Of a stretch of DNA of 23,375 nucleotides, positions 3,455-15,212 are shown one piece after another. Location of the stretch: positions 1 through 23,375 of the IMG/VR virus record IMGVR_UViG_3300031702_000049. The stretch is one strand, 5' to 3'. The notes below the pieces were generated by a model. That model saw only the letters and a list, made by a program, of their open reading frames with translations. It was not told where the DNA came from and ran no database searches. The stretch comes from a virus. The translations under genes and the position numbers were made by a program. The first letter of the stretch is position 1, and each line of letters begins with the position of its first letter.

Positions 3455-3494
3455 AGGTTAAGGGAGTTTAAGGGAGTTTAAGGGAGTTTAAGCT
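3447..3494. repeat. 10-bp tandem repeat next to the terminator
   Basis: Four full units of 10 bp (GTTAAGGGAG twice, then TTTAAGGGAG twice) and a partial fifth (TTTAAGCT) run from 3447 to 3494. The unit length is close to one DNA turn. The first unit doubles as one arm of the terminator stem, and each further unit could pair with the same opposite arm. Confidence 0.85.
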
Positions 3495-12319: not shown

Positions 12320-12925
12320 ATGTTATTAAGTGAAAGATTAAGTCAGATAGTCGCACATTATGGAATTAATTTAACAGAGTTTTCTAAAAAACTTGGATTA
12401 AATAATAGTGTTACTATTTCTAAAATTATTAATCAAAACAGAAAGCCTTCATCTAAAACAATAGGCAGGATTATTAAAGCCTATCCTGAGATTAATTATG
12501 ACTGGTTAATAAATGGAAAAGGTGAAATGTTAAAAACTACTCAAACTAACTACTCTGATTCAGATGACTTAACAGCTACAGCTAAACAGGTAATCGATTA
12601 TTTACAAAGTATGTATAAAAGTGGTTCAGAAGATCGAACAGGTAAAACTATAAAAGAAATGGAGCAGAAGTTCATGGCTTTTTTATATGAAGGGAAAGAA
12701 GACCTTAATAAGGCTGCTGAAGCAAGGGAGCAAAGACTTATAGATTATACAGAAAAAGGACATAAAGTGCTAGATAAAAAAATAGATTATTTAAACAAGA
12801 AACTTGAAAATATAGATTTTACTATTGAAGAAATTGAGAAATATAATTTAATTGAAGAAGTAAGGAAAGAAGATAAACTAACTAAAAAATTAAAAAAAGA
12901 TTTAAAAAATGGAAAAAATATCTAA
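12320..12925 (+). CDS. CI-like phage repressor without S24 domain (201 aa)
   Basis: Residues 1-70 form an HTH_3 domain, with ERLSQIVAHYGINLTEFSKK, LGLNNSVTISKIINQNRKPS and the Bacteroidetes-typical closing INYDWLINGKGEML. It is the only large plus-strand gene and faces the early operon, so it should keep the prophage silent. The C-terminal half lacks the S24/LexA Ser-Lys peptidase; instead residues about 110-201 are a charged coiled coil (KKIDYLNKKLENIDFTIEEI, then a Lys-rich tail). Release of repression by RecA-driven self-cleavage is therefore unlikely. A small gene overlaps its 3' end. Confidence 0.8.
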   Translation: MLLSERLSQIVAHYGINLTEFSKKLGLNNSVTISKIINQNRKPSSKTIGRIIKAYPEINYDWLINGKGEMLKTTQTNYSDSDDLTATAKQVIDYLQSMYKSGSEDRTGKTIKEMEQKFMAFLYEGKEDLNKAAEAREQRLIDYTEKGHKVLDKKIDYLNKKLENIDFTIEEIEKYNLIEEVRKEDKLTKKLKKDLKNGKNI

Positions 12926-13064
12926 AAACTTTACTAAATCTTTAAATGAAGCTCACCTTCTACCAAAAAAAGACAGGTTTAAAATCTTCAAAATTTGGAG
13001 GACTGATTATGTAGCTAAATTAAAAAAGAAATATAATTTTAGTAAAATTAAGACAGAAATTTAA
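12909..13064 (+). CDS. small basic partner gene of the repressor (51 aa)
   Basis: A 51-residue ORF whose ATG lies 17 bases before the repressor's stop, in another frame: MEKISKNFTKSLNEAHLLPK, then DRFKIFKIWRTDYVAKLKKK and YNFSKIKTEI. It is very basic and helical. Its stop overlaps the integrase stop by four bases in convergent direction, so it fills the gap between the two genes. Co-transcription with the repressor suggests an immunity role. Family unknown. Confidence 0.45.
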   Translation: MEKISKNFTKSLNEAHLLPKKDRFKIFKIWRTDYVAKLKKKYNFSKIKTEI

Positions 13065-14266
13065 CTCCAAAATTTAACAGTAGTATCTATTAAGGTTTCC
13101 ATGTTTATCTTCTTATAACCCTTTAAAGTTTTTGCATCTTTTATTCCAGTAATTTTCATAATCTGGTGATCTGAAACTCCTCCCTCACTCATTAAAGTTA
13201 TAAAGGTTCTTCTTGCAGTATGGCTTCCTATCATTTGCCACTTAGGATAAATAGAAATATTTTTAAACTTTCCTTTTTCTCTTTCTTCTTTTATTTCATT
13301 ATTTAAACCTATTTTTTTACATATTTTCTGAATCCTCTTATTAAATTTTTGCGAACTTATCTTTGGCAGTCTCCATTCATACTTATCAAGTAAGGCTTTA
13401 AGCTTAGGATGTAAAGGAATATAAGAAATTGTATTAGTTTTTTTTGCCTTTTTTACTATAGCATCTCCTTTGCTGCTAATATCTGCCTTTTCAAATATAG
13501 AATAATCCGAAAACCTTTGACCAGTATAAGCTCCTATTAAAAATAAATCTCTTGCTGAATCATCTGCCTTATTTAAATCAACTTCCTCTAGTAGTTTTAA
13601 CTCTTTTTTTGTTAAGTGTGGATGATTAGTCTCATGTCTTTTAATACTTATGTTTTTATAGTCCTCATTAATTTTATACCCTTTTCTAGCGCACCAAATT
13701 AAACAAGTCTTAAAAAAATTTATATATCTATGCAAAGTATTATCGTAAAGATTATGTTCAATTCTTAAAAAAGCTATAAAATCCTGAAAAAAGGTATCGT
13801 CAAAATCTGTAAGTAGATATTTTTTATTTGTATATTCTTGAAAAGATAAAATTTTAGATAATACTACTTTATATTTTTGTATTGCTGGTTTACCTACTTG
13901 CTGAACTTTAATTTTTTCATCAATAAAAGCAGTAAAATAATCTTCTATATAAACATATTTATTTTCGCTTTCTTTATTAGGATTAAAATATTCTTTTAAA
14001 TGCCCTATAGTTAAATTATTGCCATGAGTATCTATAACATGCTGTAATTTGTTATTTATCTCAATAAGCTTATCTGTGATCCTTCTATTTTTATAGCTGT
14101 CTCCTCCTCTTTTAGATTTAGGAAGCCTGTTTTCTTTAGACCAGTCTATAGGGTTTATTTTTAGTTGTGTACTTAATTTAAATTTTTTATTTTCACTCTT
14201 AACAAAATACTGAATAATAATTAAACTTTCTTTATTTGAGTTAGGTTCTTTTAAATAATAATACAT
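13061..14266 (-). CDS. int: tyrosine integrase
   Basis: The enzyme that joins attP to a host tRNA gene. Residues 1-95 are the arm-binding part (FKLSTQLKINPIDWSKENRL is typical of Bacteroidetes integrases), about 105-200 the core-binding SAM-like domain, and 215-401 the catalytic domain. Catalytic residues: Arg251 (TGQR), a Lys near 275, His349 and Arg352 (SHTARR) and Tyr384 (LKGYKK). The place of the second histidine in TGHxxxxT is Ile375 (TGIKDAKT), a known variable position. Its ATG touches the first base of a repeated arm-type site, so integrase could block its own promoter. Confidence 0.93.
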   Translation of the reverse strand: MYYYLKEPNSNKESLIIIQYFVKSENKKFKLSTQLKINPIDWSKENRLPKSKRGGDSYKNRRITDKLIEINNKLQHVIDTHGNNLTIGHLKEYFNPNKESENKYVYIEDYFTAFIDEKIKVQQVGKPAIQKYKVVLSKILSFQEYTNKKYLLTDFDDTFFQDFIAFLRIEHNLYDNTLHRYINFFKTCLIWCARKGYKINEDYKNISIKRHETNHPHLTKKELKLLEEVDLNKADDSARDLFLIGAYTGQRFSDYSIFEKADISSKGDAIVKKAKKTNTISYIPLHPKLKALLDKYEWRLPKISSQKFNKRIQKICKKIGLNNEIKEEREKGKFKNISIYPKWQMIGSHTARRTFITLMSEGGVSDHQIMKITGIKDAKTLKGYKKINMETLIDTTVKFWS

Positions 14267-14288
14267 AGTGGTAAATATAGTGGTAAGT
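14266..14288 (+). repeat. attP arm repeat, integrase side
   Basis: Two copies of TAGTGGTAA separated by ATA and followed by GT; identical over 23 bases to 14462-14484 and in the same orientation. It starts at the first base of the integrase start codon. Likely arm-type binding site of the integrase N-terminal domain. Confidence 0.75.
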
Positions 14289-14396
14289 AAATGTATAACT
14301 AAATATTATTAATAGTAATATCTAGATATATAAAAATATTTTATAAGAGAATATATATGAGTAGATATAACCAAAAGTTATATTTAGTGTTAATAA

Positions 14397-14417
14397 GTTC
14401 GAGTCCCTTCTTCTCCG
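14397..14417 (+). tRNA. 3' end of a tRNA gene (probable tRNA-Ser), fragment at attP
   Basis: GTTCGAGT at 14397-14404 is G53 and the T loop; CCCTT (14405-14409) is the 3' strand of the T stem; CTTCTCC (14410-14416) is the 3' strand of the acceptor stem; G14417 is the discriminator base. The 5' strand of the T stem (expected AAGGG) is not present upstream, so only the last 21 bases exist. The implied acceptor GGAGAAG with G73 fits tRNA-Ser; another type cannot be excluded. CCA is not encoded. Confidence 0.75.
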
Positions 14418-14421
14418 CTAT

Positions 14422-14460
14422 AATCCCTGTAAGTCATTGATTTACAGGGGTTTTCTTTTT
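14422..14460 (+). terminator. host-type tRNA terminator carried in attP
   Basis: CCCTGTAA (14425-14432), a 9-base loop and TTACAGGG (14442-14449) form a perfect 8-bp stem, extended to 11 by a T-G wobble and two A-T pairs, followed by TTTTCTTTTT. It lies five bases after the tRNA end and on the same strand, so it terminates the tRNA transcript once integrated. Confidence 0.85.
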
Positions 14461-14461
14461 G

Positions 14462-14484
14462 TAGTGGTAAATATAGTGGTAAGT
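14462..14484 (+). repeat. attP arm repeat, lytic-gene side
   Basis: Exact second copy of the 23-base repeat at 14266-14288, same orientation, 196 bp away. It begins one base after the terminator's T run. Four TAGTGGTAA units thus flank the core in two pairs. Confidence 0.75.
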
Positions 14485-14501: not shown

Positions 14502-15212
14502 TTATAAGTCCATCATAACATTAATGGCAGTATGCCCACCTATAACAATTCCGCAGCCTATAGCTTGTCTTCTAAAGTTTTTAGCATAAGCAGCGGCATA
14601 AGTTTTCTCATCTACTCCGCATCCTACTTGCATTCCAAAGACTTTGTATTTTTTACCTACATAAAATTGAGTTCCTGCTTTTGTATGGGTATGTCCACAG
14701 ACTGAACTCTGCATATTTTGCTGAGCCTTTCTATAAGCGTCTCCTCCTTCTCCATGCTCATAGCATACGTTGTCATATGTAACATTTTCTACCCAGTTCC
14801 ATTCAGTGCCTAAGACTTCGTTATAGTCTCTGATCCATTCTTTAGGAATATCACTATCAAAAGCTCTGCGCATACATAACCTGTCATGATTTCCTATGCA
14901 GACATCCGCTACAGGATATTTATTATTCCATTTTTCTATCTGGTCTATTGCGTGCTGTAACTCTTCACCTCCTCCATAGCCATTAGGATCAGTAGCATGA
15001 AAGGAGCTATAGTGTGAGTCTATAATATCACCTATAAATACTACTTGATTACAGTTATATTTAGAATAGGTTTCATTACAGAAATCAAAATAACCATCTA
15101 ACTCAAAAGGACAGTGCAAATCGCCAATAATAAGAATACGTGATTCATTTCTTGTAATGTTATCATAAGCAGTTTTTTTATTTCCTTTAAGTCTAGGTCT
15201 AAAGTCTTTCAT
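14502..15212 (-). CDS. calcineurin-like metallophosphoesterase (236 aa)
   Basis: All motifs of the two-metal phosphoesterase fold are seen in order: GDLH at 30-33, GDIID at 61-65, GNHD at 107-110, a His in YEHG at 151-154 and GHTH at 173-176. Such enzymes hydrolyse phosphomono- or diesters; the substrate cannot be read here. The length and the long N-terminal RPRLKGNKKTAYDNITRNES leader fit small phage members. It is the last gene of the rightward-to-leftward late operon before attP and overlaps the holin gene by ATGA. After integration it would sit beside the restored tRNA. A DNA- or nucleotide-processing job, or a lysogenic moron, are both possible. Confidence 0.85.
   Translation of the reverse strand: MKDFRPRLKGNKKTAYDNITRNESRILIIGDLHCPFELDGYFDFCNETYSKYNCNQVVFIGDIIDSHYSSFHATDPNGYGGGEELQHAIDQIEKWNNKYPVADVCIGNHDRLCMRRAFDSDIPKEWIRDYNEVLGTEWNWVENVTYDNVCYEHGEGGDAYRKAQQNMQSSVCGHTHTKAGTQFYVGKKYKVFGMQVGCGVDEKTYAAAYAKNFRRQAIGCGIVIGGHTAINVMMDL

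Follow-up and report, generated by a model that had tools for sequence, protein, structure and literature searches.

A candidate phage attachment site with two pairs of integrase arm sites, and covariation of their bases with residues of the integrase N-terminal domain

The integrase gene and the repeats at its start

The window, by which we mean the whole 23,375-base virus record analysed here, carries terminase, portal, tail fibre and lysis genes as well as a gene for a tyrosine integrase (Int). The catalytic and SAM-like core-binding domains of tyrosine recombinases are both present in this protein (PF00589 at 34.7 bits, cut-off 27.1; PF13102 at 31.9 bits, cut-off 22.3), which also matches integrase in PHROG (1.8e-25). 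Residues 1-95, scanned alone, match the N-terminal arm DNA-binding domain PF17293 at 25.2 bits (cut-off 22.6), the whole protein scoring 20.3 bits, below the cut-off; 19 of 20 relatives match the same family. The predicted fold of this N-domain is a beta-sheet plus helix (pLDDT 90.9); compared with solved arm domains, HPI integrase 3jtz ranks first as a weak match (Z 2.7, 3.1 A over 54 residues), and Foldseek with the N-domain alone gave no match at E 0.001. An HTH gene at 12320-12925 is a phage repressor candidate, and small HTH proteins are encoded near the putative attP. The features considered below are:

13061..14266, minus strand: tyrosine integrase, 401 aa (Arm-DNA-bind_5, Phage_int_SAM_5, Phage_integrase)
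13982..14266, minus strand: arm-binding N-terminal domain, residues 1-95 (PF17293; strands 3-5, 14-22 and 27-37, then a helix)
14266..14288, plus strand: putative left (int-side) arm pair, AGTGGTAAA at 14267-14275 and AGTGGTAAG at 14279-14287, 12-bp period, abutting the int start codon
14289..14396, no strand assigned: AT-rich spacer from left arm to core, the presumed place of host-protein bending and of an int promoter
14397..14419, plus strand: putative attP core, a 23-nt tRNA 3' end recognised by its sequence anatomy, replaced by other tRNA 3' ends in relatives
14422..14452, plus strand: intrinsic terminator (14-bp hairpin, T tail), placed to follow the restored tRNA gene after integration
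14462..14484, plus strand: putative right arm pair, AGTGGTAAA at 14463-14471 and AGTGGTAAG at 14475-14483, oriented as the left pair
14502..15212, minus strand: gene for a calcineurin-like phosphoesterase, beyond attP, there in close relatives too

The initial annotation had described a 23-base repeat of two units, present twice 196 bp apart around a tRNA fragment and terminator, and a search of the window confirms it: TAGTGGTAAATATAGTGGTAAGT stands exactly at 14266-14288 and 14462-14484, on the plus strand and in the same orientation, with 196 bp from start to start. Its placing of the repeat's first base at the integrase start codon is also borne out, position 14266 pairing with the A of the ATG (Int 13061..14266, minus). 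Beyond the exact 23-mer, the likeness of the two copies reaches 36 nt at 83%. Exact TAGTGGTAA occurs at only four places in the window, all within the two TAGTGGTAAATATAGTGGTAAGT copies, and the window has one other short-period repeat, at 3458; any exact 18-mer repeat appeared in only 4 of 200 first-order Markov surrogates of the window. Comparison with relatives refines the unit to AGTGGTAAR, 9 nt long with a 12-bp period and starting one base later, which puts the unit starts at 14267, 14279, 14463 and 14475.

Between the pairs, the core comprises a T-loop (TTCGAGT), the 3' strands of the T-stem (CCCTT) and acceptor stem (CTTCTCC) and a discriminator G. Among viral contigs it is matched exactly in one only, inside tRNA-like sequence with anticodon GTT, and the exact 22-nt core had no match in 249 Flavobacteriaceae genomes; ARAGORN found no whole tRNA in the window, as expected of a fragment. 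The terminator that follows folds at an MFE of -18 kcal/mol (z -5.9 for 14422-14452). Its core, GTAAGTCATTGATTTACAGGGG (window 14427-14451), recurs in L065, L102 and L103 and is thus common to phages whose tRNA ends differ, and therefore appears to be phage-borne rather than host-derived with the tRNA. Matches to sigma-70-type promoters in the attP region were no more frequent than chance, and an Rfam scan returned sub-threshold chance matches only.

Pairs in the same places in viral relatives and integrated elements

When viral contigs were searched with the window Int as a single protein, no relative was found. Scanning them for pairs of TAGTGGTAA yielded four loci (L065, L063, L066, L044) with integrases 52-63% identical to the window Int, each with one pair near the int start and another past the tRNA end and terminator, and an alignment-based search added L102, L103, L106-L110, L113 and others. 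Across related integrases of 42-63% identity, repeat pairs of 12-bp period lie in the same two places as in the window, with other units (AGGTGCAAG, AGTAGAATG, AGTTGACAG, AGGGGACGA); the TAGTGGTAA sequence itself is not conserved. Specifically, L102 carries AGGTGCAAG, L103 CGTTGAATG, L106 CGTTGTAAG, L107 and L108 AGTAGAATG, and L110 and L113 AGGGGAAAG. Each of the 11 close viral loci inspected had a pair in either place (the window, L063, L065, L066, L102, L103, L106-L108, L110 and L113). Counterparts of the left pair occur in every close viral relative and on the int side of integrated elements, those of the right pair past the tRNA 3' end and terminator and at the far end of integrated elements, and the two sides are normally alike within one phage or element.

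The initial annotation had proposed looking for TAGTGGTAA pairs beside related integrases and had taken their absence as grounds for refutation. Many relatives lack TAGTGGTAA and have another pair in its place, so that absence of TAGTGGTAA would have misled as a refuting test. As a way to relatives, a search with TAGTGGTAA alone was discarded; it would miss most of them.

Three loci share one tRNA end and differ in the kind of arms (L065, L102, L103), and shared arms accompany four tRNA ends (the window, L065, L063, L066); core and arms evidently assort separately. Over most of int, L066 and L108 agree at 87-100% identity, with nearly identical C-terminal parts; their identity drops at both arms and over int codons 1-30, and hardly elsewhere.

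Some viral and chromosomal loci depart from this arrangement. In L225 the left pair (AGGTGAATG, about 0-25 nt upstream of int) has T at base 4 of the unit and the right pair (AGGGGAATG, about 214-235 nt upstream) has G; by analogy with the proposal made for Adephagia, these unlike pairs possibly represent a transitional state of arm specificity. On a Kordia contig (L115/L119) the int-side pair GTGGTAAG fits its own Int, and a different pair, GGGAATG, about 190 bp further on perhaps belongs to a neighbouring element in the same site. Seven loci with related N-domains (L227, L229, L242, L228, L223, L238, L258) have 12-bp pairs of another type (TTCGGTA, TTGTGTA, ACGGAAAG, GCGGTCG, GGTGACG), which in most cases flank the core; they stand outside the residue-base rules given below.

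About 80 more integrases came from a search of 396 genomes akin to that of a Kordia MAG; when this family was drawn on a second time, most of the genomes were already in the set. An exact tandem 9-mer lies within the 135 nt at the int start in 58 of 99 integrase loci, with a period of 12 in 47 and of 11 in 11, compared with 9 of 1,980 shuffled 135-nt stretches. Stretches further upstream held 11 tandem 9-mers, mostly of period 12, partly because viral attP regions hold the right pair there. The tandem 9-mer search found no pair at about six loci of the same N-domain class (L131, L152, L156, L160, L164, L167).

In 7 of the 12 genomes searched with their own pattern (G399, G232, G102, G158, G175, G291, G228), the pattern occurs at the int start and again 7-24 kb off; in the remaining five, the strict pattern matched at the int-side copy only. 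The far site of all seven elements reads tRNA or tmRNA 3' end, terminator, pair, and in five of them ARAGORN called a complete gene there (tRNA-Ser(TGA) in four, tmRNA in one). The int site reads int start, pair, AT-rich spacer and 3' fragment of the same gene. This two-ended placement is that expected of P and P' arms after integration. As in lambda-like attPs, the core is the 3' part of a tRNA or tmRNA gene, both by the window's own anatomy and in the integrated relatives, and repeated arms lie on both sides of it, one set at each prophage end.

Five of these elements (in G399, G232, G175, G228 and G291) measure only 7-10 kb between the pairs, too small for most phages, and are likely to be satellites or islands. 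The element of L425 in G291 sits in a tmRNA gene, and its integrase is closely related to those of tRNA-Ser users. Another clade (L175, L176, L179, L181, L185, L189, L192 and others) combines a different N-domain with tandem repeats of 11-bp period by the int start (units TTTGCCGAA, ATCCCCACA), in which the same device probably takes another spacing.

Covariation of arm bases with N-domain residues

Numbering the unit A1 G2 T3 G4 G5 T6 A7 A8 G9, we computed the mutual information (MI) between every variable N-domain column and every unit base at 53 loci. G2 and G5 are nearly constant across units, partly by construction, as the pair finder demands both. The best correlates of the variable bases correspond to four codons of the window int:

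14216..14218, minus strand: Ile17, covarying with arm base 3 (I/L/M/V with T; Y/F/R with G)
14177..14179, minus strand: Lys30, covarying with arm base 4 (K/R with G; V/I/T with T; Q with A)
14210..14212, minus strand: Gln19, best correlate of arm base 6 (partial)
14183..14185, minus strand: Lys28, best correlate of arm base 8 (partial)

Residue 17 and base 3 reach a normalised MI of 1.00, their rule holding at 53 of 53 loci; residue 30 and base 4 reach 0.96 (52 of 53); and the next combinations, residue 19 with base 6 and residue 28 with base 8, fall to 0.64. Units were set by hand at about ten of the 53 loci, since no automatic pair was found at L119, L127 and L145 and G-runs caused register slips at L155, L173 and L174; at the others, setting by hand made no substantive difference. 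When every unit was taken automatically, the two rules held in 94 and 91 of 100 copies, the misses being those three slips of register, L151 and a single copy of L148 (the base-4 rule fails in L151 and L148, entirely or in one copy), and residues 17, 30, 19 and 28 are still the best correlates of their bases. Residue 31 had been considered as the setter of base 3; this guess did not survive the chromosomal set, and residue 17 took its place.

The rules, which leave out the subclass L227-L229 and L242 and the 11-bp clade, were fixed before new loci were drawn, and were scored on N-domains of the same class with an automatically found pair. Among these held-out loci the base 3 rule holds in 12 of 12 and the base 4 rule in 12 of 13, the sole exception being the left pair of L225, whose right pair fits. 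On a tree built from the protein without its N-domain, 15 changes are counted for base 3 and as many for residue 17. All independent pairs (11 of 11, p 0.001) show base 3 following residue 17, about 7.4 of 8 (p about 0.016) show base 4 following residue 30, and the crossed pairings show no association. It is thus most likely that residue 17 sets the choice at base 3 and residue 30 that at base 4, and we propose that residues 19 and 28 influence bases 6-8. By their alternation on adjacent strands, the four residues would share one face of the predicted hairpin, from which residues 17 and 30 may read bases 3 and 4 by direct contact.

Interpretation, alternatives and known systems

We interpret 14266-14484 as a phage attP in which two direct pairs of arm sites flank a tRNA 3'-end core and a terminator, and give this reading a probability of roughly 0.9 on the comparative sequence evidence. 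The P and P' arm-site function suggested by the initial annotation is strongly supported by the pairs' conserved place in relatives, their presence at both element ends and their covariation with N-domain residues. Int would physically bind the pairs, its N-domain docking on the paired units and bridging to the tRNA core, as lambda Int does, and a DNA-bending protein of the host presumably bends the spacer (14289..14396) within the intasome. Integration would leave the whole tRNA gene, the terminator and the right pair at one prophage end, the restored tRNA gene being followed by the terminator; the int end would keep the left pair, the spacer and a 3' fragment of the tRNA.

The left pair may additionally be an operator through which Int represses transcription or translation of its own gene, an addition to the attP reading rather than an alternative to it. 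At 50 loci this pair lies 0-42 nt (median 12) from the ATG, and the site overlaps the int start; Int bound there could therefore hinder int expression. Furthermore, across the family the 170 nt upstream of int hold the Bacteroidota -7 box TANNTTTG more often than expected (33 of 53, against 8.7), and intS of KplE1, among other integrase genes, is autorepressed from an att site that overlaps its promoter (PMC2951348). However, the window has no exact TANNTTTG upstream of int, and the closeness of the pair may merely reflect an attP that abuts int. Autorepression is plausible, and we put its chances at about even.

The residue-base association could instead reflect block transfer of hairpin and arms together, in which case any hairpin residue would correlate with the arms in the absence of direct contact. 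The differences between L066 and L108, clustered in the arms and codons 1-30, agree with such transfer; nevertheless, other variable hairpin residues are far worse correlates (for base 3, an MI of 0.56 for residue 19 as opposed to 1.00 for residue 17), and each of 11 independent pairs repeats the switch of this residue together with its base. The rule for base 4, moreover, joins K or R to G and Q to A, in keeping with common side-chain preferences. We consider transfer without contact unlikely.

Still less probable, and in our estimate very unlikely, is that the repeats are operators for another DNA-binding protein (such as an excisionase or the phage repressor, for which the HTH gene at 12320-12925 is the candidate) rather than for Int. 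Direct repeats spaced by one turn would also suit excisionases and repressors, and small HTH proteins are encoded near them, but the bases of the repeats follow integrase residues, a single base with a single residue, in independent lineages, little nearby except the arms and the first 30 int codons distinguishes L066 from L108, and the operators of another protein are not expected at both element ends every time. That the 23-mer arose by chance or by a recent local duplication and has no function, as the AT-richness of the region and its mere two copies might suggest, has a negligible probability, given that surrogates rarely produce even an 18-mer repeat and that place and pairing are conserved in relatives with different repeat sequences, comparative data that contradict such an origin.

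Returning to arm sites read by Int, we lean towards a simple, reusable residue-to-base code, by which arm specificity would diversify through concerted changes in a few residues of the hairpin and in all four (or five) sites, largely independently of the targeted tRNA. If so, on 16 units AGNNGTAAG, I17Y should shift preference from T3 to G3, K30V from G4 to T4 and K30Q from G4 to A4, and Int K30V combined with all units changed to AGTTGTAAG is predicted to restore activity lost by either change alone. Such a code would keep co-resident elements in one tRNA gene off each other's sites, and arm specificity would diversify much like repressors and operators in phage immunity. Arm specificity has so far been solved phage by phage, in few phages; here dozens of natural specificities are readable from sequence, because each element has two copies of the answer beside its integrase gene. 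Arm sites can thereby be predicted from a protein and element ends located in genomes, and single substitutions can serve to test recognition. The fast turnover of arm specificity, which the tRNA target does not require, is a further question raised by these data.

The window attP belongs to the lambda-like attPs with paired arms, the kind known from CrimD and L5. In mycobacteriophages CrimD, Anaya and Adephagia (cluster K), L5 and Giles, two pairs of short arm repeats surround a tmRNA or tRNA 3'-end core, and CrimD has a terminator between the core and the distal pair (PMC3203893), much as in the window; the CrimD pairs are mutually inverted, whereas those of the window are all direct, as in L5 and Giles. 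Lambda Int is heterobivalent, with its N-domain on arm sites and its other domains at the core, arms on both sides and a bent spacer (PMC4880445). The division into arm-binding, core-binding and catalytic domains and the flanking arms are common to both systems, but lambda has five unequal arm sites, with IHF, Xis and Fis sites known experimentally, and the window two equal pairs.

Prophages of Oenococcus oeni carry direct repeats in both arms around a tRNA core, and their repeats and Int N-termini differ together, for which coevolution was proposed (PMC8074189). These attPs have two to four copies per arm, without a residue-to-base assignment, in contrast to the pairs of the window. CTnDOT and NBU1, the latter targeting a tRNA gene, are conjugative or mobilizable elements, and the window is a phage. 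Their integrases, from Bacteroidota and of the IntCTnDOT subgroup, place an arm-binding N-domain on subterminal arm sites (PMC8138268). KplE1 likewise has att arm sites beside the int start, and repression of intS by its integrase was seen in E. coli reporter assays and predicted for most tRNA-associated integrases (PMC2951348); for the window, such repression is only presumed.

Mycobacteriophages that differ at arm base 7, which is T or G, differ at Int residues 17 and 19 too, and a transitional state has been proposed for them (PMC3203893). Coevolution of arms and N-domain thus has precedents as a proposal, for mycobacteriophages and for Oenococcus phages. A residue-base correspondence that recurs across a family was not found in the literature searched, which is weak evidence of novelty as subscription papers lay mostly outside the search. 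The mycobacteriophage case concerns few phages and one base, whereas here the correspondence recurs throughout a whole family.
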